Positions 2,951 to 55,340 of a stretch of DNA of 64,000 nucleotides are shown here, in pieces. The DNA is from Heliocidaris erythrogramma (taxonomy: Eukaryota > Echinodermata > Echinoidea > Camarodonta > Echinometridae): the NCBI GenBank assembly GCA_025617745.1, contig CM046869.1, forward strand, positions 4,302,244 through 4,366,243, read 5' to 3'. Position numbers and translations under genes: made by a program. Within the stretch, counting starts at the first letter, position 1; every line of letters begins with the position of its first letter. The notes beneath the pieces were generated by a model. That model saw nothing but the letters and a program-made list of their open reading frames with translations. It made no database searches and was not told the origin of the DNA.

Positions 2951-3368
2951 CCTGGTCGCCGTGGGGAGCCAGGATTAGCTTCGTGAATGTAAAAAAAAAA
3001 AAATTGGCTATACGCCTTTTAAATCACGAAGCCAGGCGTTTTTCCCCAGCAATCTAAATTCGCACGGGTTAGCAGGACATGAAAATGCCCTGAAATAACA
3101 CTTTTCTGATAACTCCCGTGACCGACATATGGATTTGAGCAAAAGGAACTCTTTCCAAATTATCATTCACAGGTTCCAAATTTGGCAAAATAACATTTTT
3201 TAATTATTTAATTTAAATGATTTTTATATTTTTATTCAGTGTAACTAGTCACTATATTGGTAAAAAGAAACTGAAAGTTTTAATCATCAAAAACCACGAT
3301 ATTCAGTATCAGCGTATGTCTTCTTGAACAAATAAAAAATTACAAATGCCCAATAATTAATAATGAGC

Positions 3369-4178
3369 CACTCATAGGTACACGCCATTGCCGACTGTGT
3401 AGTAACGCAGCCAACACACATCCCATACCTAAACTGCATCACTGTGCATTTTTGGCTATATTTAATTGAATCTCATATATTGCAGTTTACTTACATCCAA
3501 AGAATTATATTGAATAGTAGATGATTAAAACTTACCAGGTTGTTTTGTGACCTTTGAAGAGGGTTTCCTGAAATTTTGGGTCCTTTTTGTCGATAACTGC
3601 TATCGAGACTGTCCCGTCAGCATCCAGTTTGTATTTTTCACGATTATGATGAAGGGAGCCCTCAGCGCTCGTAGTAGTACCGGCGCGATGGGTTCGTCGA
3701 TCTCCTACGAAGACCTGGAAGGGCCAAACTGACGACGTAAAAAAATTAAAAATATTACGTACGTACGTAATAATTACTACGTACGTACGTAATATTTTTA
3801 ATTTTTTTACGTCGTCAGTTTGGCCCTTCCAGGTCTTCGTAGAATAGCTTGTGTGCGTAACATTCTGCGTACGTATCTACGGTGCGTAACCATGTAGAGC
3901 GGCCTCACTAGTGCGCAACATTATTGAGAGCAGTCGTCATCCGTATGGAGGTGTGGGTAACAAGTACCAAAAAGAGGGCTGTAAATGTAAGTTTTTATAA
4001 CTTTCTACATTTTGTATCTTAACGAACTGATAACTTAAAATCTAAAGAATGATACTTAAGTATCAGTTTGCCCACAAAAACATCAATTTCAAACAAAATT
4101 ACATCTGTATCCCCAATACCCAGTATACACACATGTATATGATTCTAATGGTCAATATGACCATTGCTTGCTGATGTG
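3369..4178. mobile_element. X element, unit 1
   Basis: An 810-bp unit starting CACTCATAGGTACACGCC and ending GCTTGCTGATGTG. It contains a minus-strand exon-like frame (about 3540-3709) and a central near-perfect palindrome (3706-3841) with three ACGT repeats in each arm. Its own ATCTTAAC word (about 4016) is uninterrupted here, which shows what X3 looked like before insertion. The plus-strand 61-codon frame at 3547 is conserved among copies, but I read it as the shadow of the minus-strand frame. Confidence 0.85.
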
Positions 4179-4186
4179 TAATGAGC

Positions 4187-4996
4187 CACTCACAGGTACA
4201 CGCCATTGCCGACTGTGTAGGAATGCAGCCAACACACATCCCATACCTAAACTGCATCACTGTGCATTTTTGGCTATATTTCAGTGAAACTCATATATTG
4301 CAGTTTACTTAAATCTAAATACTTATGTTGAATAATAGATGATTAAAACTTACCAGTTTGTTTTGTGACCTTTGAAGAGGGTTTCCTGAAATTTTGGGTA
4401 CTTTTTGTCGATAACTCCTATCGAGACTGTCCCGTCAGCATCCATTTTGTATTTTTCACGATTATGATGAAGGGAGCCCTCAGCGCTCGTAGTGGCACCG
4501 GCGCGATCGGTTCGTCGATCTCCTACGAAGACCTGAAAGGGCCAAACTGACGACGTAAAAAAATTAAAAATATTACGTACGTACGTAATAATTACTACGT
4601 ACGTACGTAATATTTTTAATTTTTTTACGTCGTCAGTTTGGCCCTTCCAGGTCTTCGTAGAATAGCTTGTGTGCGTAACATTCTGCGTACGTATCTACGG
4701 TGCGTAACCATGTAGAGCGGCCTCACTAGTGCGCAACATTATTGAGAGCAGTCGTCATCCGTATGGAGGTGTGGGTAACAAGTACCAAAAAGAGGGCTGT
4801 AAATGTAAGTTTTTATAACTTTCTACATTTTGTATCTTAACGAACTGATAACTTAAAATCTAAAGAATGATACTTAAGTATCAGTTTGCCCACAAAAACA
4901 TCAATTTCAAACAAAATTACATCTGTATCCCCAATACCCAGTATACACACATGTATATGATTCTAATGGTCAATATGACCATTGCTTGCTGATGTG
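4187..4996. mobile_element. X element, unit 2
   Basis: An 810-bp unit, same orientation as unit 1 and nearly identical except for scattered substitutions. In the minus-strand exon-like frame, unit 1 reads AVIDKKDP while units 2 and 3 read GVIDKKYP. Its palindrome is at 4524-4659. Flanked on both sides by TAATGAGC. Confidence 0.85.
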
Positions 4997-5658
4997 TAAT
5001 GAGCCACTCACAGGTACACGCCATTGCCGACTGTGTAGGAATGCAGCCAACACACATCCCATACCTAAACTGCATCACTGTGCATTTTTGGCTATATTTC
5101 AGTGAAACTCATATATTGCAGTTTACTTAAATCTAAATACTTATGTTGAATAATAGATGATTAAAACTTACCAGTTTGTTTTGTGACCTTTGAAGAGGGT
5201 TTCCTGAAATTTTGGGTACTTTTTGTCGATAACTCCTATCGAGACTGTCCCGTCAGCATCCATTTTGTATTTTTCACGATTATGATGAAGGGAGCCCTCA
5301 GCGCTCGTAGTGGCACCGGCGCGATCTGTTCGTCGATCTCCTACGAAGACCTGAAAGGGCCAAACTGACGACGTAAAAAAATTAAAAATATTACGTACGT
5401 ACGTAATAATTACTACGTACGTACGTAATATTTTTTATTTTTTTACGTCGTCAGTTTGGCCCTTCCAGGTCTTCGTAGAATAGCTTGTGTGCGTAACATT
5501 CTGCGTACGTATCTATGGTGCGTAACCATGTAGAGCGGCCTCACTAGTGCGCAACATATTGAGAGCAGTCGTCATCCGTATGGAGGTGTGGGTAACAAGT
5601 ACGAAAAACAAGGCTGTAAATGTAAGTTTTTATAACTTTCTACATTTTGTATCTTAAC

Positions 5659-6303
5659 CACTCACGGGTACATTCCTGTAAAATAGTTGGTATTTTCTGT
5701 CGCATGTACTAAAGGTATGGGGGGAAAATAAGATAAATATTTTAAATACCTTGCTTTCAAATTCAGCCCTTAAAAATCTCACTCCTACCTCAAATGGCCG
5801 TTAGGAAGAACTTTTGGTATTTTCAGCAAAATCCAAAGTCAAAATCTTGTCCAAAACCGGAGAAATCCCCGCCGATTTGTTTCGCGATCGCGTGTTGTTT
5901 ACATACTGCCGATGTCTTAGACTAAAATCGGCCAATACAATTTTTGTCCACGAAGAAACTCGGGATCGCAAGCACACATCGATCTTTACGATCGCGCACA
6001 CAGAAAATCGGGACTTTTCCGTGTACGCCATAGGGACCGAATTTTTAAGGACAAAACGCTTTTGGGGAGATGTCAGCGCCCGCGAATCAACAGTAAATTA
6101 CGGATTTGATTTTTGGAAATATCTTTTCCAACATCGGTGAGTTGAATTTATTGTATTTCTTGGATATTTTGTGGTCGGTTTTTGTAAATTAAATGCCGAT
6201 TTTGAGTGAATGTTTGTGACTTTTGTGCAGTGGTGTTTTAAAAAGTTGAGGTGTATGACTGCCTAAATTATACACACGAAGTATAGGAATGTAGCTATGA
6301 GTG
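5659..6303. mobile_element. B element, copy 1
   Basis: A 645-bp element with inverted ends: CACTCACGGGTACATTCCTG on the left and, read inward from the right, CACTCATAGCTACATTCCTA. ATCTTAAC flanks it at 5651-5658 and 6304-6311. It carries a 108-codon plus-strand frame (5814-6140) overlapping a minus-strand frame. Compared with the 691-bp copies it lacks a short stretch near 6090 that reads GGCGAACAGGAAATGTACAC in copy 2. Confidence 0.83.
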
Positions 6304-6311
6304 ATCTTAAC

Positions 6312-7108
6312 CACATCAGCAAGCAATGGTCATATTGACCATTAGGATCATATACATGTGTGTATACTGGGTATTGGGGATACAGATGTAATTTTGTTTG
6401 AAATGGACGTTTTTGTGGGCAAACTGATACTGAAGTATCATTCTTTAGATTTTAAGTTATCAGTTCGTTAAGATACAAAATGTAGAAAGTTATAAAAACT
6501 TACATTTACAGCCCTCTTTTTGGTACTTGTTACCCACACCTCCATACGGATGACGACTGCTCTCAATAATGTTGCGCACTAGTGAGGCCGCTCTACATGG
6601 TTACGCACCGTAGATACGTACGCAGAATGTTACGCACACAAGCTATTCTACGAAGATCTGAAAGGGCCAAACTGACGACGTAAAAAAAAAAAAATATTAC
6701 GTACGTACGTAGTAATTATTACGTACGTACGTAATATTTTTAATTTTTTTACGTCGTCAGTTTGGCCCTTGCAGGTCTTCGTAGGAGATCGCGCCGGTAC
6801 TACTACGAGCGCTGAGGGCTCCCTTCATCATAATCGTGAAAAATACAAACTGGATGCTGACGGGACAGTCTCGATAGCAGTTATCGACAAAAAGGACCCA
6901 AAATTTCAGGAAACCCTCTTCAAAGGTCACAAAACAACCTGGTAAGTTTTAATCATCTATTATTCAATATAATTCTTTGGATGTAAGTAAAGTGCAATAT
7001 ATGATATTCAATTAAATATAGCCAAAAATGCACAGTGATGCAGTTTAGGTATGGGATGTGTGTTGGCTGCGTTACTACACAGTCGGCAATGGCATGTACC
7101 TATGAGTG
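6312..7108. mobile_element. X element, inverted copy inside the composite
   Basis: Starts CACATCAGCAAGC and ends CCTATGAGTG, the reverse complement of the array units, with ATCTTAAC on both sides (6304-6311 and 7109-7116). Its exon-like frame lacks 12 bases (four codons) relative to other copies, near 6788, an in-frame difference. Confidence 0.83.
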
Positions 7109-7116
7109 ATCTTAAC

Positions 7117-7807
7117 CACTCCCGGGTACATTTCCGTAAAATAGTTGGTATTTTCTGTCGCATGTACTAAAGGTATGGGGGGAAAAATAAGATAAATATT
7201 TTAAATACTTGCTTTCAAATTCAGCCCTTAAAAATCTCACTCCTACCTCAAATGGCCGTTAGGAAGAACTTTTGATATTTTCAGCAAAATCCAAAGTCAA
7301 AATCTTGTCCAAAACCGGAGAAATCCCCGCCGATTTGTTTCGCGATCGCGTGTTGTTTACAAACTGCCGATGTCTTAGACTAAAATCGGCCAATATAATT
7401 TTTGTCCACGAAGAAACTCGGGATCGCAAGCGCACATCGATCTTTACGATCGCGCACACGGAAAATCGGAACTTTTCCGTGTACGCCATAGGGACCGAAT
7501 TTTTGAGGACAAAACTCTTTTGGGGAGATGTCAGCGCCCGCGGCGAACAGGAAATGTACACAATGACTCCGATAGCTCGTTTCGCGAGAATCAACAGTAA
7601 ATTACGGATTTCATTTTTGGAAATATCTTTTCCAACATTGGTGAGTTGAATTTATTGTATTTCTTGGATATTTTGGGGTCGGTTTTTGAAAATTAAATGC
7701 CGATTTTGAGTGAATATTGGTGACTTTTGTGCAGTGGTGTTTTAAAAAGATGAGGTGTATGACTGCCTACATTATACACACGAAGTATAGGAATGTAGCT
7801 ATGAGTG
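7117..7807. mobile_element. B element, copy 2
   Basis: A 691-bp B element in the same orientation as copy 1, starting CACTCCCGGG and ending CTATGAGTG, flanked by ATCTTAAC at 7109-7116 and 7808-7815. It has overlapping frames of 125 codons (plus, 7272-7649) and 111 codons (minus, 7259-7594). Copy 3 at 49830 is nearly identical and in the opposite orientation. Confidence 0.85.
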
Positions 7808-8758
7808 ATCTTAACGAACTTATAACGTAAAATCTAAAGAGTGATACTTAAGTATCAGTTTGCCCACAAAAACCTCCATTTCAAACAAAATTACATCTGT
7901 ATCCCCAATACCCAGTAAAAGGCAGTATACACACATGTATATGATCCTAATGGTCAATATGACCATTGCTTGCTGATGTGTAATGAGCCTTTAAATTTAA
8001 AGTTTCACACCCAGTTTCATCCCTTGACATGCTTGACATAATGTTCTATAAATGGGACTGAAGGTAATTCATCATTCGAAACGAGACGAGATTTCAATAT
8101 GTCCACCACGAGATGTATTCATTTTAGAAATATAATTCAAACAACACCAAAGAATTTATGCCAAATAAAAAATTGTAAGGTTTACCTGCTTAGCTCTTGA
8201 CAGAAAAGTGCCAGCTTGGCCAGCAAATTTTTTGACGTTGTCCATTGCTTGATCCATTGCCATATTGAAAAGGAAATGACCCAGATTGACCCCGCCCTCT
8301 TGTGATTATTGTAATAAAGTATTGATCAATCGATAAACACAATCCGAGATGTTACGTACTATACTAAAAATAACATGTTAGCTAAAATCGGGGCTAAAAT
8401 TAACATCGGCCTTCTGTTTGATTTAAGGAGATTATTTTTAAAGAATTTTTAAACAAGGGATTGAACTCTCGATCCAAATGGGGATTGGGGGGGGGGGGGG
8501 ATGTTTCTAGACCATCCCGTGCTTGCCCTTCAGTAGCAAGTTTTAGCAGTATCATTGTGTTGTCCCCATAGGTTGTTCCCCCCCCCCCCTGCATGCTTCA
8601 CACCCCTTTCCCTTGGACTGTTTCAAAAGCACGTAATGTGGGGTGGATAAGGTGAGTGGGGGTGAGGTGTAGGCAAGCCTCAACCTTAAATTTGTTGGCG
8701 CGCCACTAGGAAAAGGTGAGCTCACCAAAAAAATCCATACTGCTATAACAAGTATGTC

Positions 8759-20720: not shown

Positions 20721-21142
20721 GGCCAAAGTCGTTATTATGCCCAGCCGCCATTAAATCCGCCTGACCAAGTGAATAATTAGTCAAGTTTCTTGGTTTTCAT
20801 TGTTGAAATTCAGTTATTTATAACGAAATAAACGCTATCGTTATCGATTCATAACTGAAAAAAATATCAGCAAGAAAGAGCGGGATTCGAACCCGGGACC
20901 TTAAACGCGAGTGCGGTGTAGAAAGAGAATACTCTGACAGTCTGATCAGACGGCTTTACCACTAGACCACGAGCAATTGACAGCGAATCTGATCTTGCTG
21001 CACTAGATCTATTACTTAGTTTATTAAGGCTTTATACCTCCGCTCCATACAAATCCTATCTATACCTCCGTTCTGCTGTTTTATATCCTAGGTAGGATTC
21101 TTGCCAATTCGAGGATTACTGGGCATATTAGCTATAATAGCC
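20721..21142 (-). mobile_element. TIR element with internal tRNA-like segment, copy 2
   Basis: 422 bp flanked by GAATTAGC at 20713-20720 and 21143-21150, a perfect 8-bp target duplication. Ends are GGCCAAAGTC... and ...ATAATAGCC, with inverted inner end words (ATTATGCCCAG, TAATATGCCCAG). On the minus strand the middle reads as a tRNA-like gene, with TGGTCTAGTGGTAA as A-box and GGTTCGAATCCC as exact B-box, about 75 bases apart. Same family as 2370-2762. Confidence 0.8.
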
Positions 21143-22519
21143 GAATTAGCCATCATATTTAAGGGTAAAACATATCCTCAATTCTACAATTTTTTTTATA
21201 GATTTGCAGACAAAAAAATGGGTGTCACCGCCCCCCCCCCCCTAGCGACGCCCCTGTAGAACGTAATATAGGTCAGATGATATTTAGACTGAAGCTCGCC
21301 GCCTTGCCTAAATATGGTTGCAAATCACAGGAAATACAGTACTCAAAAAGACAAGATTCATGCATCACATAATAAAGTTATTATTCAACAACGGCCCTGT
21401 GTCCAGGATAATACGAGGAGTAATGTACTATCGCACTCCCAGAGAGTGCCTAATATTTGACACTCAGATTACCAACAGATTAGCACCTTAGCTTACCAGG
21501 TGAATTGAATAGCTCAACAAAAAGGCAAAAGTTCAGTACTGTGAAGCGGACATAATTACATTTATGTGCAAAACCATTAACTTTATATAACTCACAAAAT
21601 GAAATGACTTGCAATCATTTTTTTCTGGTAGATATTTCCGCAGTCATGTTGGTAAATTGTTGTTTTTCCCCCCAGTTCCATTCAAGTTCCCAGCGATATT
21701 TCTGGAAACAAAACCGCCCAGCAACACAAATGGCAATAATCAGATCAATGTTACATTTTTTGAAACTGCTTTTCGAAACTAATTGAAAAGAAGAAGGGAA
21801 AATCGATTTCTTGAATACCTTATGTGAAAAAATGTCATAGGATTTTTGTTTATTCGTTTTATTGTTTTTTTTAATCTCACTCCTGTCGAACATACATTGA
21901 TTTACATTTTTCCTTTGAAACATTTTAAGTTGCATATGAAACAAAAATAAGAAAAAGGGCTGCAATAATCTAATTGTACCCGAACCTGAGAGAAAAATAA
22001 AGGTGTTATACAACTGTAGCATTCCCAACGGAATATGAACACACTATTAAAATCGGAGATATATGTTGCATAAGGCCAGAATGTTCTGAATATACCAAGA
22101 AATGTGATGTATTGGTATAACGCAGAATAGATTTTCTGCTGTATGCCAGCCGTGTATATGATTATACGTGTGTAATGTATACTATATACCGTTGGATCAG
22201 TCCGCCTGAACTCGTAATTCTCCCATCATGCCTGTAGAATAATAGGAAATGGCTTTAAGTTATTCATATCATTCATGACCAAAATGACAAATAACGATAT
22301 TGTTTCATGCTTGTCTGTGTTCATCCAGCTTGAACGTTTGTTCCGTATTCAGAATAATATTTTTTTTCTTTATTACCTTTATTACCGGATCTACTGGAAA
22401 AATGCAGTTACTTCTGCAGTCGTGTTTCCAGGTCTATCTTCTCTTTTCTATCTCTCTCTAGCTGTCTGTGTGCTGTACCAATGGGGTGGAATATGTCACT
22501 ATTCCCATGGGTGAGCATA

Positions 22520-25393: not shown

Positions 25394-25660
25394 GTTTCAC
25401 AATTTTTATTTTTTCCCTGTACATGATCGAAGGTTTTATCTTTGTAAACATGGCAACGGTTGGCCTAGTTAAACACCATGATTGGGTTATATTCTTATGC
25501 ACCGAAGTTAAACAAATGCTCTTTCCCAATTCTAAAAATGCAAAATATATACATGTGAAATACATACAGCTAAATGACAATATATATCTCAGATAGTGAA
25601 AAAATATTACTGTTATGAGCATGTTAATAGATATTTACATTTTCTCATCGCCCCCTGTCA

Positions 25661-25881
25661 CTCTCTCTCTCTTCCCCCCCCCCCCCCCTCTCTCTCTCTC
25701 TCGATCTCTCTCTCCCCTCTCTCTCTCCCCTCTCTTTCTCTCTCCCCTCTCTTTCTCTCTCCCTCTCTTTCTCTCCCCCTCTCTCTTTCTCCCCCTCTCT
25801 CTTTCTCCCCCTCTTTCTCTCCCCCCTCTTTCTCTCCCCCTTTCTCTCTCTGTTTCTCTGTCCTTACCTCTCCCCATACAG
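25661..25881 (+). promoter_or_regulatory. Polypyrimidine tract of about 210 nt at the shared 3' splice site
   Basis: From 25661 to the CATACAG acceptor at 25881 the plus strand is almost purely C and T. This is the acceptor every candidate first exon must use. A tract this long would bind U2AF or PTB-type proteins strongly if transcribed, so it may influence splicing. Its origin may simply be microsatellite growth. Confidence 0.6.
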
Positions 25882-40761
<14,880 letters not shown>

Positions 40762-49176: not shown

Positions 49177-49829
49177 TAAGTACCTAAAGTAGCCTAAAAT
49201 CAAATAATGTCATGTTTCATGGCTATCATTTTGACAAACGACCTTGTATTAAGAGACATCCAAGCAATCAAAGGACTGCTGATCGCAGCCCAATCACTAC
49301 GTCATGTACGTGTTCGGGCTGCCGCAGTAACCGGTACTCCAGACTAGCTTTTACGGGTGAATAGGCTTCAATACTATAGCTATTGTGTGTATCAGCAGGC
49401 CCTTTTCCAGGCTAGATCATTCATACAGGAGAGGAAAACAATGATTTAAAATTTCACTTTCAAGTCTGAATCCCTACATTTGTGGCAAAGTATAACTATA
49501 AGAGTTGAAGAGTCCCTGAATCAGGTAATCTAGCAAATTTAAGAAAATTAAATCTTGTTTAGAGCAATTTTGTTGTCTGCTTTTGACTGCTGGCAGTGCT
49601 GCAACAGTCATGACAGTGAATGTTGACCACTCCACAGTCCCACATAGGCAAGGGCCTATGAGTGGGCCATGGGCTTGCGTAGTCATGCCATGGTAGTCCC
49701 ATCTACATGTATTAATGAATAATCGGATGATCTATTAGTATTATTTGAAATTTGGATGAGCAGGTGAGCAGATACGGCAAGCAGTTGTGACGCAGCAAGA
49801 AATTTAGGCGACTTTACTATAGTCTATAC

Positions 49830-50520
49830 CACTCATAGCTACATTCCTATACTTCGTGTGTATAATGTAGGCAGTCATACACCTCATCTTTTTAAAACAC
49901 CACTGCACAAAAGTCACCAATATTCACTCAAAATCGGCATTTAATTTTCAAAAACCGACCCCAAAATATCCAAGAAATACAATAAATTCAACTCACCAAT
50001 GTTGGAAAAGATATTTCCAAAAATGAAATCCGTAATTTACTGTTGATTCTCGCGAAACAAGCTATCGGAGTCATTGTGTACATTTCCTGGTCGCCGCGGG
50101 CGCTGACATCTCCCCAAAAGAGTTTTGTCCTCAAAAATTCGGTCCCTATGGCGTACACGGAAAAGTTCCGATTTTCTGTGTGCGCGATCGTAAAGATCGA
50201 TGTGCGCTTGCGATCCCGAGTTTCTTCGTGGACAAAAATTATATTGGCCGATTTTAGTCTAAGACATCGGCAGTTTGTAAACAACACGCGATCGCGAAAC
50301 AAATCGGCGGGGATTTCTCCGGTTTTGGACAAGATTTTGACTTTGGATTTTGCTGAAAATATCAAAAGTTCTTCCTAACGGCCATTTGAGGTAGGAGTGA
50401 GATTTTTAAGGGCTGAATTTGAAAGCAAGTATTTAAAATATTTATCTTATTTTTCCCCCCATACCTTTAGTACATGCGACAGAAAATACCAACTATTTTA
50501 CAGTAATGTACCCGTGAGTG
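49830..50520. mobile_element. B element, copy 3, clean 8-bp duplication
   Basis: 691 bp, CACTCATAGC... to ...CCCGTGAGTG, opposite in orientation to copies 1 and 2. GTCTATAC flanks it at 49822-49829 and 50521-50528. It carries the same pair of overlapping frames (50043-50378 plus, 49988-50365 minus). Confidence 0.9.
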
Positions 50521-50571
50521 GTCTATACTGGCTCCTATACATGTACAAGCTTTTCTGAAGATAACCTTGTA

Positions 50572-51295
50572 TACTCATAGGTACACGCCATTGCCGACTG
50601 TGTAGTAACGCAGCCAACACACATCCCATACCTAAACTGCATCACTGTGCATTTTTGGCTATATTTAATTGAAACTCATATATTGCAGTTTACTTAAATC
50701 CAAATACTTTTGTTGAATAATAGATGATTAAAACTTACCAGGTTGTTTTGTGACCTTTGAAGAGGGTTTCCTGAAATTTTGGGTCCTTTTTGTCGATAAC
50801 TGCTATCGAGACTGTCCCGTCAGCATCCAGTTTGTATTTTTCACGATTATGATGAAGGGAGCCCTCAGCGCTCGTAGTAGTACCGGCGCGATCGGTTTGT
50901 CGATCTCCTATGAAGACCTGAAAGGGCCAAACTGACGACGTAAAAAAATAAAAAATATTACGTACGTACGTAATAATTACTACGTACGTACGTAATATTT
51001 TTTATTTTTTTACGTCGTCAGTTTGGCCCTTCCAGGTCTTCGTAGAATAGCTTGTGTGCGTAACATTCTGCGTACGTATCTACGGTGCGTAACCATGTAG
51101 AGCGGCCTCACTAGTGCGCAACATATTGAGAGCAGTCGTCATCCGTATGGAGGTGTGGGTAACAAGTACCAAAAAGAGGGCTGTAAATGTAAGTTTTTAT
51201 AACTTTCTGACAAAATTACATCTGTATCCCCAATACCCAGTATACACACATGTATATGATCCTAATGGTCAATATGACCATTGCTTGCTGATGTG
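50572..51295. mobile_element. X element with 8-bp duplication and internal deletion
   Basis: 724 bp, same orientation as X1-X3, flanked by ACCTTGTA at 50564-50571 and 51296-51303. The first base is T instead of C. About 86 bp are missing after TTATAACTTTCT (near 51210). The palindrome is at 50909-51044. Confidence 0.88.
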
Positions 51296-51314
51296 ACCTT
51301 GTAGTACTCCACAA

Positions 51315-52122
51315 CACATTAGCAAGCAATGGTCATATTGACCATTAGGATCATATACATGTGTGTATACTGGGTATTGGGGATACAGATGTAATTTTGT
51401 TTGAAATGGAGGTTTTTGTGGGCAAACTGATACTTAAGTATCACTCTTTAGATTTTACGTTATAAGTTCGTTAAGATACAAAATGTAGAAAGTTATAAAA
51501 ACTTACATTTACAGCCTTGTTTTTCGTACTTGTTACCCGCACCTCCATACGGATGACGACTGCTCTCAATATGTTGCGCACTAGTGAGGCCGCTCTACAT
51601 GGTTACGCACCATAGATACGTACGCAGAATGTTACGCACACAAGCTATTCTACGAAGACCTGGAAGGGCCAAACTGACGACGTAAAAAAATAAAAAATAT
51701 TACGTACGTACGTAGTAATTATTACGTACGTACGTAATATTTTTATTTTTTTACGTCGTCAGTTTGGCCCTTCCAGGTCTTCATAGGAGATCAACGAACC
51801 GATCGCGCCGGTACCACTACGAGCGCTGAGGGCTCCCTTCATCATAATCGTGAAAAATACAAAATGGATGCTGACGGGACAGTCTCGATAGGAGATATCG
51901 ACAAAAAGTACCCAAAATTTCAGGAAACCCTCTTCAAAGGTCACAAAACAAACTGGTAAGTTTTAATCATCTATTATTCAACATAAGTATTTAGATTTAA
52001 GTAAACTGCAATATATGAGTTTCATTTAAATATAGCCCAAAATGCACAGTGATGCAGTTTAGGTATGGGATGTGTGTGGGCTGCATTCCTACACAGTCGG
52101 CAATGGCGTGTACCTATGAGTG
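51315..52122. mobile_element. X element, inverted, with 8-bp duplication
   Basis: 808 bp from CACATTAGCAAGC to CCTATGAGTG, flanked by CTCCACAA at 51307-51314 and 52123-52130. Only 11 bp separate its left duplication start from the end of the preceding X. It carries the GDIDKKYP-type exon-like frame on the plus strand. Confidence 0.88.
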
Positions 52123-52140
52123 CTCCACAATAGCTTTTAG

Positions 52141-52980
52141 CACTCATGGCTACATTACTGTAAAATAGTTGGTATTTTCTGTCGCATGTACTAAAGGTAT
52201 GGGGGGAAAATAAGATAAATATTTTAAATACCTTGCTTTCAAATTCAGCCCTTAAAAATCTCACTCCTACATCAAATGGCAGGGTGAATGGGCGTTAGGA
52301 AGAACTTTCCATATTTCCAGCAAAATCCAAAGTCAAAATCATGCCCAAAACCGAAGAAATCCCCGCCGATTTGTTTCGCGATCGCGTGTTGTTTACACAC
52401 TGCCGATGTCTTCGACTAAAATCGACCAATAAAATTTTTGTCCACAAAGAAACTCGGGATCACAAGAGCACGTCGATCTTTACGATCGCGCACACAGAAA
52501 ATCGGGGTAGCGTTTCATCAAACGGTCATAAGTACAAGTTCGCCGACATCCCATTGAAACGCGTGTATTAAAATTAACACGCGTTTCAATGGGATGTCGG
52601 CGAACTTGTACTTATGACGGTTTGATGAAACGATGCCCAGGACTTTTCCGTGTACGCCATAGGGACCAAATTTTTAAGGACAAAAATCTTTTGGGGAGAT
52701 GTCAGCGCCCGCGGCGACCAGGAAATGTACACAATGACTCTGATAGCTCGTTTCGCGAGAATCAACAGTAAATTACGGATTTCATTTTTGGAAATATCTT
52801 TTCCAACATCGGTGAGTTGAATTTATTGTATTTCTTGGATATTTTGGGGTCGGTTTTTGTAAATTAAATGCCGATTTTGAGTGAATGTTGGTGACTTTTG
52901 TGCAGGGTGTTTTAAAAAGTTGATGTGTATTATGACTGCCTACATTCTACACATGAAGTATAGGAATGTAGCTATGAGTG
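52141..52980. mobile_element. B element, copy 4, with nested palindromic MITE
   Basis: 840 bp from CACTCATGGC to CTATGAGTG, flanked by GCTTTTAG at 52133-52140 and 52981-52988. The extra length comes from a palindromic insert at about 52505-52639. The orientation is that of copies 1 and 2. Confidence 0.88.
52505..52639. mobile_element. Near-perfect palindromic MITE inside B copy 4
   Basis: CGTTTCATCAAACGGTCATA at the left and its reverse complement (one mismatch) at the right; the arms continue for about 60 bases to a short AT-rich loop. B copies without it read ATCGGGACTTTTCC across the site. Related to 53122-53255. Confidence 0.8.
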
Positions 52981-53121
52981 GCTTTTAGTACAGGTGAATA
53001 CAGAATAGGCTTCAAATTTCAATGGGTTTTGTGTGTATTAGCGGGAATTGGTCCAGTCTAATGTTTGTTAATATTTTATAATAATTGTTATGTTAGATCA
53101 TGCATTCATACATCATGTTCA

Positions 53122-53255
53122 GGGGCCCGTTTCATGAAACCGTCATAAGTCTAAGTTCGTGGACATCCCATAGAAACGCGTGTTGATTTTACAACACACG
53201 TTTCTATGTATTGTCCAAGAAGTTAGACTTATGACGGTTTCGTGAAACGGGGCCC
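53122..53255. mobile_element. Palindromic MITE, GGGGCCCGTTTCATGAAACC type
   Basis: 134 bp; the arms share CGTCATAAGTCTAAGTTC and CGTGTT words with mismatches. Same family as the insert at 52505-52639, by the GTTTCATGAAAC..GTCATAAGT ends. Confidence 0.8.
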
Positions 53256-53851
53256 AGGAGAGCACACTAGCAACACTAGCATGACTAGCGGGTCAATATA
53301 AATGCGTATTGATCACTAGTCCACTGTATGTTTGTAACCAGAATATGATAATATTCACCCAAATTACATGTCACATGGATACACATGCAACTTCACACTA
53401 GCTATACGAGCTCCTTGGCTTATCAATCTGGTACATGCCTACAGAGCTTATACACGGGGGTCCTATTATGGCGCCTGTCGGACGATGTCAACACAAAAAT
53501 CCTATGCATCATAATCACCCATTCCCATGCACGGTGAACCTTGCAAACTACCCTCGGTATTTGCTGTGGTGGTTCTGGTCATATTTAAAATCTAAAGATA
53601 TCAATCGACACAAAATCTCAAAACTTATCTACAAAAATTTGGCAGCGGGGATAGGATTCAGCTTACCTTCCGCATGTTGCTTTTGCTTGTTGATTTGTCC
53701 TCACTTTCTGCAGAATCTCCCTGAGACAGGGATGTATCGCAGCTGGCGAACGAATGATGACGCCCACACATGCTGCATTTATGTTGCACATCTTGCTTTT
53801 GCTAGTCTCTGCATTTACATGTAGTTCCTGAGACCCGCTGTTTGTATAAAC

Positions 53852-54182: not shown

Positions 54183-55340
54183 AGTATACAAGCGAAAGGA
54201 AAGAAGTGCTCAGTATTGCTTATAAAAATGATACAAATAAAAAATGTGAAAATTGTACATGATATCACAAACAAGATTTAGCGTTTTTATTTCTTTTCAA
54301 TCTGAAATTATTATATTTGAATGCATGGCAGTATTACTACCGAGAATGAATGTCGGACTAATTATTGACAACCTATCGTGAACGTAAACAACTTTTCAAT
54401 GTTTATACAATCGCTAATGAAAGTGAGCCCTCTACGGAAGTGAGCCCTCTACCGCATATCCCAACAAAGTTTTTCAAAGCACTGAGAATCCGATAGGGCT
54501 TATCAGCATTTATCCCGTAAATTTTTTGGGGGAATGGCTTCAAAATTTCATCTGAGTAAATGGTAAGCCTGCATATTATTATTGTCCCCAAATTATCAGT
54601 GGGGACGGGGGTTAAGTCCTTAACTTAGAAACTTAGGACTTTCTTGGAGTCATACATGTTCACGACTCAATGTTAGTGCATGACACTTGCACTTTCTACA
54701 TTATACCGAGTATAATAAAGCAGCTATGAGTGCATGAGAGGAAAATTATTATTTAAAATTTCACTTTCAACTTTGGAACACCAAATTTGTAGCATAGTAA
54801 GAGCTGAAGTCCCTGAATCAGGTAATCTAGTAAATTAAAAAAATTAAATCTTGATAGAGCAATTTTGTTGTCTGTTTTTGACTACTGCAACAGTGAATGT
54901 TTTCACACAGTCCCACATGTAAGCATGGGCCTATGACTGATACTGACTATGTAATAACGTAACAGATACTGAGCCAACGCTGGATCATGCAGCACTGTGG
55001 ATTGGTATCTATATTTAAAAATATATGATAAAAGTATGTTTATTAAGTATGTTTGATCATAAATACAATACAATTGAAACTTACCAGTTTGTTTTGTTGG
55101 AGTGGGTTTCCTGAAATTTAGGGCAACTTCTGATGAAACCACACCAACTTGACCAAGTAAGAGTGGTCGTATTGACCACTAATGTCCAAAATACTACATA
55201 TTTTCTATCGCATATGGACATTTGTCTAACATTCCGAGTCCAAGTGGGAAAAAAAATACATTTTTTTATTACCAGAGTTCTGTTTGGAGTTTCATTGGGA
55301 AAGGGAGATTTCTACGGAGCCCAGGAGAGAACAAAAGGAA
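54183..55340. other. Non-coding stretch
   Basis: A segment at about 54735-54935 is a diverged copy of 49430-49650 (TTTAAAATTTCACTTTCAA, TGAATCAGGTAATCTAG). No gene recognised. It may be an old duplication of the sequence left of the B/X cluster. Confidence 0.5.

Follow-up and report, generated by a model that had tools for sequence, protein, structure and literature searches.

How several transposon copies can come to stand head to tail with one and the same 8-bp word at every joint is the question raised by this locus. It lies in a 64-kb stretch of DNA from Heliocidaris erythrogramma (assembly GCA_025617745.1, contig CM046869.1, positions 4,302,244-4,366,243 of the forward strand), hereafter the window, within which all element comparisons and word counts were made. 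The elements concerned are best explained as two non-autonomous cut-and-paste DNA transposon families, X and Y, and their inventory was obtained using a script that matched X1 and Y against the window, together with a reading of both clusters. Three X copies (X1-X3) form array A, and a second array, array B, lies inside X3. The reading preferred here, to which we give a probability of about 0.78, is that X1 and X3 re-used one target word, TAATGAGC, that unequal crossing-over between them gave X2, and that array B formed by re-use of a target-site duplication (TSD) at ATCTTAAC.

As shown in Table 1, TAATGAGC is found at the four element boundaries of array A, and each copy directly abuts an X end, which bears out the original prediction for this locus. 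As a word, TAATGAGC is not rare: it occurs five times in the window against 2.26 expected, and at least five copies were found in 11 of 100 shuffles. The signal of array A is the register, that is, four copies placed exactly at element ends; the remaining copy, at 33869, is not accompanied by any X or Y match. The length of 810 bp that had been given for each X holds for X1 and X2, but X3 extends over 5005-7980 (2976 bp) with three elements inside it, and measures 819 bp when the three inserts and one 8-bp word for each are removed.

The word is a TSD and not X sequence, because X4, X5 and X6 carry other 8-bp TSDs (ATCTTAAC, ACCTTGTA and CTCCACAA, respectively). The possibility that TAATGAGC is always attached to X as a component of the element was rejected, since different words flank the other X copies in the window; X4, X5, X6, Y3 and Y4 carry five words other than TAATGAGC. 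Perfect 8-bp flanking repeats are present at all ten X and Y elements in the window that have both ends (X1-X6 and Y1-Y4), with six distinct words among them: TAATGAGC, ATCTTAAC, GTCTATAC, ACCTTGTA, CTCCACAA and GCTTTTAG. Every joint within an array consists of one copy of the word flanking that array, exact over 8 bp, with four copies each of TAATGAGC and ATCTTAAC.

X1 and X3 differ by 32 substitutions in 809 positions, distributed as 21/400 in the left part of the alignment and 11/409 in the right part. When X2 is left out, the copy nearest to X1 is X4 (12/797) and that nearest to X3 is X6 (13/808); at the diagnostic sites, X4 is mostly of the X1 type, X6 is mostly of the X3 type, and X5 is mixed. 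X1 and X3 appear to derive from separate sources because they are this far apart while X4 and X6, respectively, are closer. The comparison thus indicates that X1 and X3 are independent insertions of different source copies at one 8-mer, which corresponds to re-use of the TSD and not to duplication of a unit.

The pattern in X2 is chimeric. Between X1 and X2 there are 20 substitutions in 810 alignment columns, with 20/400 on the left and 0/410 on the right, whereas X2 and X3 differ at 12 of 809 columns, one in the first 400 and 11 in the other 409 compared. At the 32 X1/X3 substitution sites, X2 is X3-type at the first 19, X1-type at X position 323, X3-type at position 350, and X1-type at the last 11 (432-776). 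At position 323, a T is private to X3; G is found in X1, X2, X5 and X6, and X4 has a gap. A subsequent substitution in X3 is the best reading of this site. With position 323 omitted, 20 sites of one type are followed by 11 of the other in a single switch (P = 2.4e-8), and with it retained, the runs test for at most four runs gives P = 2e-6. To the right of the switch, length differences of 1 bp and 10 bp also group X2 with X1.

If X3 of one chromatid exchanges unequally with X1 of the other, the product is exactly X1, a unit with an X3 left part and an X1 right part, and X3. On the pattern of substitutions, X2 is a single-switch chimera of X3 (left) and X1 (right), as predicted for unequal crossing-over in an X1-X3 dimer. 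The switch falls in an interval of 81 bp that has no diagnostic site and lies inside a 138-bp near-perfect palindrome. Palindromes are prone to breakage; the location carries no weight here, as 138 of 810 bp corresponds to a chance of about 1 in 6. A recent duplication of the whole unit as the source of X2 and X3 was rejected, since the right part of X2 is X1-type. The near identity of units 2 and 3, which had been taken to favor amplification, therefore holds for the left part, where X2 is X3-like, and fails for the X1-like right part.

Array B, which the original prediction missed, is a second shared-TSD array consisting of Y1 (+), X4 (−) and Y2 (+) joined by four copies of ATCTTAAC. This word is native to five of the six X copies; X5 lost it by deletion. 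Unit amplification is ruled out for array B because two families and both orientations are present; only repeated use of the TSD as an insertion site accounts for the array. The idea that a composite formed elsewhere had transposed as a block was also rejected: the inner joints of the Y1-X4-Y2 trio equal the outer word, whereas those of a single composite arrival would differ from it. Y2 differs from Y3, 42 kb away, at 6/691 positions and from its array neighbor Y1 at 19/644, and Y1, too, is marginally nearer to Y3 (16/644) than to Y2.

Table 1. Features of arrays A and B, of cluster 2 and of the neighboring Y copy; positions refer to the window.
Feature	Position	Strand	Remarks
Y5	2176-2965	−	decayed and rearranged copy of Y, 0.4 kb to the left of array A, with a single remaining end; no TSD established
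TAATGAGC copy 1	3361-3368	+	left edge of array A
X1	3369-4178	+	810 bp, A type; X4 mostly of the same type at X1/X3 diagnostic sites
Palindromic core of X1	3705-3842		138 bp, 98.6% self-complementary
TAATGAGC copy 2	4179-4186	+	X1/X2 joint
X2	4187-4996	+	810 bp, putative recombinant: 5' part X3-type, 3' part X1-type
Predicted exchange interval in X2	4537-4617	+	X positions 351-431, no X1/X3 substitution; in palindromic core
TAATGAGC copy 3	4997-5004	+	X2/X3 joint
X3, left part	5005-5658	+	B type; last word is the native X word ATCTTAAC
ATCTTAAC copy 1	5651-5658	+	array B, in X3
Y1	5659-6303	+	645 bp; imperfect terminal inverted repeat of ~20 bp, CACTCACGGGTACATTCCT / CACTCATAGCTACATTCCT
ATCTTAAC copy 2	6304-6311	+	Y1/X4 joint
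X4	6312-7108	−	797 bp; predominantly A type, orientation opposite to that of X1-X3
ATCTTAAC copy 3	7109-7116	+	X4/Y2 joint
Y2	7117-7807	+	691 bp
ATCTTAAC copy 4	7808-7815	+	right edge of array B
X3, right part	7808-7980	+	last ATCTTAAC copy through GATGTG
TAATGAGC copy 4	7981-7988	+	right edge of array A
Palindromic core, other X copies	4523-4660, 5341-5478, 6648-6784, 50908-51045, 51650-51786
Y3	49830-50520 (with TSDs 49822-50528)	−	GTCTATAC on both sides
X5	50572-51295 (with TSDs 50564-51303)	+	internal deletion, first base T; ACCTTGTA on both sides
X6	51315-52122 (with TSDs 51307-52130)	−	CTCCACAA on both sides
Y4	52141-52980 (with TSDs 52133-52988)	+	nested hairpin insert; GCTTTTAG on both sides

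The order of events that we infer is as follows. An A-type X and a B-type X would have inserted successively at TAATGAGC, the second precisely into the TSD copy left by the first, which would result in a head-to-tail X1-X3 dimer. With the chromatids misaligned, X1 and X3 would then have undergone unequal crossing-over in the palindromic core, which would have produced X2 and the fourth 8-mer. Y1, the inverted X4 and Y2 would have accumulated at the native ATCTTAAC in X3 by the same re-use of the TSD. Repeated insertion and amplification of a unit had been offered as alternatives; both probably operated, at different steps, namely insertion for the X1-X3 pair and unequal crossing-over for X2, and rolling-circle amplification is not needed.

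The ends of the elements bear on the enzyme that moved them. The left end, CACTCA..GGTACA, is common to both families. The first bases are CACTC in X (TACTC in X5) and CACAT or CACTC in Y, so that the termini are CA..TG except in X5, which begins with TA. Y termini form an imperfect terminal inverted repeat (TIR) of ~20 bp, and the two ends of X match each other over 3 bp only (CAC/GTG). From the shared ends and the shared target words, one transposase making 8-bp TSDs probably moves both X and Y.

Cluster 2, spanning 49822-52988, comprises Y3 (−), X5 (+), X6 (−) and Y4 (+), each with its own TSD. In the host stretch rebuilt by removing the four elements and one word for each, the target words start at 22, 65, 76 and 86. 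The clustering statistic was computed for six host-level TSD insertions (two at TAATGAGC and four in cluster 2), with Y5 and the three insertions inside X3 excluded. If these insertions were placed at random over ~56 kb, the bound on finding four of them inside 65 bp would be 9e-8, and the value for two at the same base pair 2.7e-4; both figures were selected post hoc and take no account of chromatin or target preference. The spacings of 43, 11 and 10 bp are near whole helical turns: with 10.5 bp per turn, P is about 0.01 and the resultant is 0.95, and 10.0 bp per turn gives a resultant of 0.58. T is found at position 4 in all six target words when they are read with the element (in the Y1/Y2 orientation for ATCTTAAC), and the pattern nTnnnnAn fits 7 of 12 half-sites (P = 0.047, n = 6). 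The helical phasing (four sites) and the T at position 4 (six sites) are leads only. The copies of ATCTTAAC in X1, X2, X4 and X6, which have the same near flank, and the copy at 31852 are empty, all three insertions being in X3.

One rival is an artefact of assembly, in which the true locus is an X1-X3 dimer with a single TSD shared between the units and the loop "X1 3' part - TAATGAGC - X3 5' part" was walked twice. The absence of any substitution between X2 and X1 to the right of the switch agrees with such a loop, and so do the 81 bp over which X1 and X3 agree, which lie in a near-perfect palindrome, a structure difficult to resolve with short reads. A pure loop leaves no X2/X3 difference to the left of the switch, but one is present (position 323); this is mild evidence. 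We consider the artefact improbable and take the chimera to be biological; in either case, the dimer, array B and cluster 2 would stand untouched. That the whole of array A arose with no second insertion, an X-plus-8-mer unit having been amplified by a rolling circle, through a circular intermediate or by replication slippage, is less probable still. The identical 818-bp steps X1/X2 and X2/X3, together with the uniform orientation of the units, are as expected for amplification, but the 32/809 substitutions between X1 and X3, the fact that X4 and X6 are closer to them when X2 is set aside, and the chimeric X2 are not, and array B, laid out in the same way, is made up of two families in opposite orientations. 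As the explanation of all joints, unit amplification was rejected on the X1/X3 divergence and array B. Several points weigh against successive insertion and exchange: the exchange interval lies in the very stretch where an assembly loop could arise; with a single X2/X3 substitution on the left and none between X1 and X2 on the right, a recent duplication and an artefact are nearly indistinguishable; no transposase family was detected among the 10 scanned open reading frames (ORFs), 69 ORFs of at least 90 aa being listed in the window; and a 3-bp match between the ends of X is unusual if the transposase is shared with Y.

A different matter is how the word is chosen. The 8-mers may be strong hot spots of the transposase, each word being selected without help from a resident element, which is compatible with the reading by successive insertion and unequal exchange. 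Insertion-site preference is the conclusion of McGurk & Barbash for fly dimers, as given in the available part of the review PMC12628747, and the T at position 4 in six words and the 7/12 half-sites point in the same direction, but no element occupies the additional TAATGAGC at 33869, ATCTTAAC is unused in X1, X2, X4 and X6 and at 31852, and X4 enters ATCTTAAC in the opposite orientation, which breaks the position-4 rule. We regard hot spots as a tenable explanation, somewhat short of even odds. Alternatively, the resident X or Y end may direct the next insertion, with a transposase bound there attacking either the neighboring TSD (offset 0) or a site on the same face of the helix some turns farther on. 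This idea is speculative and rather unlikely; it draws on what appear to be five independent insertions at two 8-mers (X1 and X3; Y1, X4 and Y2) with the other copies of the words empty, and on the four insertions of cluster 2 with 43/11/10-bp spacing, the signal of which is weak at 10.0 bp. If the resident end does direct insertion, mixed arrays would grow by design, irrespective of family and orientation, and not by preference for a word.

As for the superfamily, the ends of hAT elements follow the rule YARNG and those of P elements follow CANRG, and the CACTC ends of X and Y fit neither. The 8-bp TSDs at 10/10 elements agree in length with those of hAT and Zisupton. A TSD length of 8 bp is likewise given for hobo, the P element and Zisupton in the accessible portions of PMC3276498 and PMC12730594, so that X and Y resemble these three in this respect. 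For KDZ elements, the same portions give CA..TG ends without a TIR for two Kyakuja families only, which have 7-bp TSDs; X and Y end in CA..TG, X5 beginning with TA. The KDZ transposase (PF18758) was not among the 10 ORFs scanned of the 69 listed, X and Y being non-autonomous. P-superfamily elements are characterized by TSDs of 7-8 bp inside a palindromic target motif; X and Y show the 8-bp TSD, and six target words are too small a sample to define such a motif.

Neither the X ORF nor the Y plus-strand ORF had a Pfam match at E ≤ 1, the Y minus-strand ORF gave a weak match to Tektin bundle interacting protein 1 (E = 0.28) that is read as chance, and no homologous protein was found for the X ORF at E ≤ 0.001. 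An exon-like frame in X (3535-3720, minus strand) occupies the corresponding position in each of the six X copies and ends at a donor-like site, GTAAGT; the X1 version reads ...KYKLDADGTVSIAVIDKKDPKFQETLFKGHKTTW. Over 43 codons, the X1-like version shows 4 or 5 differences from that of X2/X3/X6. Because all of these are nonsynonymous, the frame has the appearance of a captured or leftover piece that is not under selection, purifying selection not being shown and five sites being few; it may derive from a host exon taken up by X or be what is left of the transposase gene. A match of the piece to the PDB chain SAKe6DEtal, presumably a designed protein, had E = 0.0012 over 23 residues with no stretch passing alone, and was rejected as chance. 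No viral contig matched the exact 24-base pattern of the X end, and the Y end pattern matched 10 contigs of bacterial records, against an estimated 30 or so expected by chance.

A wider TIR scan that allowed up to three mismatches gave 38 matches against 18.2 expected, of which 14 are X or Y ends and one is the Y5 end (2176); two lie in the hairpin inside Y4, and 21 lie elsewhere, including 49651, 54719 and 54926. The stretches 49426-49664 and 54733-54939 are 75% identical and terminate in GGGCCTATGAGTG and GGGCCTATGACTG, respectively, comparable to the X/Y end, which suggests a third, older relative of the two families; 54733-54939 directly follows a Y-like relic end at 54719-54732. The hairpin nested in Y4 (52508-52640) is a long inverted-repeat element, and a diverged copy was seen by eye at about 53120-53260, just outside cluster 2. 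The decayed Y5 copy is split by a repeat (2370-2765, with 74% identity to 20721-21145) that may be another mobile family. The window as a whole is eukaryotic-looking and animal-like. It includes an exon-like frame with FAD/NAD-binding character (25600-26310), in which Thi4 and NAD_binding_8 exceed the Pfam cut-offs and which we take, from its motif, to be monoamine-oxidase-like. A retroelement relic at 32884-33507 has a zinc-binding-in-reverse-transcriptase domain (zf-RVT, PF13966, E = 3.6e-9). The window contained no tRNAs and no Rfam families at the gathering score.

The locus provides a worked example of how isolated transposons may turn into tandem repeats, with independent insertions at a TSD as the seed and one unequal exchange giving the third unit. 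Array B shows that a TSD can be re-used by elements of another family and of the opposite orientation, and this suggests a role of the transposase or of a resident end, not of homology. If such arrays are confirmed genome-wide, they would supply natural data for studying why a target that has just been used is chosen again.

The layout had been proposed as something undescribed, a claim that is not supported, since tandem double insertions through a re-used TSD are already described for Drosophila P and hobo. According to the parts available of PMC12628747, McGurk & Barbash (2018) found that Drosophila transposons commonly dimerize and attributed this mainly to insertion-site preference, and the TSD enables repeated insertion into one site, with hobo expanded to 16 tandem copies. 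The corresponding parts of PMC9659126 report P-element tandem junctions of the TSD size with a similar motif, and those of PMC12368964 describe head-to-tail double insertions as common for class II elements. In the portions consulted of the Galileo papers (PMC4168063 and PMC3573991) and of PMC10299278, PMC4744444, PMC4079207 and PMC9297572, no closer parallel was found; nor was a mixed-family shared-TSD array found in the sections consulted of the literature on transposon tandems, which is weak evidence of absence. The shared-TSD tandem is thus of a known kind, and what this locus adds is a mixed-family, mixed-orientation array together with a readable exchange product.

Among other systems, as far as the excerpts of PMC5907723 describe them, the SaTar arrays of non-autonomous MULEs in guayule and rice are likewise linear, with intact elements of several families joined and not nested; however, their joints are microsatellites, with 10-bp TSDs outside the microsatellites, whereas the joints here are exact 8-bp TSDs. 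The KolobokP multimers, in the excerpts of PMC9587614, are DNA transposon multimers that are usually flanked by TSDs, as here, but neighboring units share a long terminal direct repeat instead of a TSD word. The Drosophila P and hobo double insertions, as the cited excerpts present them, are like the arrays of this locus in that the joint is a TSD-sized word produced by repeated insertion at the same site. In contrast to them, two families in both orientations share one word in array B, and one unit of array A can be read as a recombinant.

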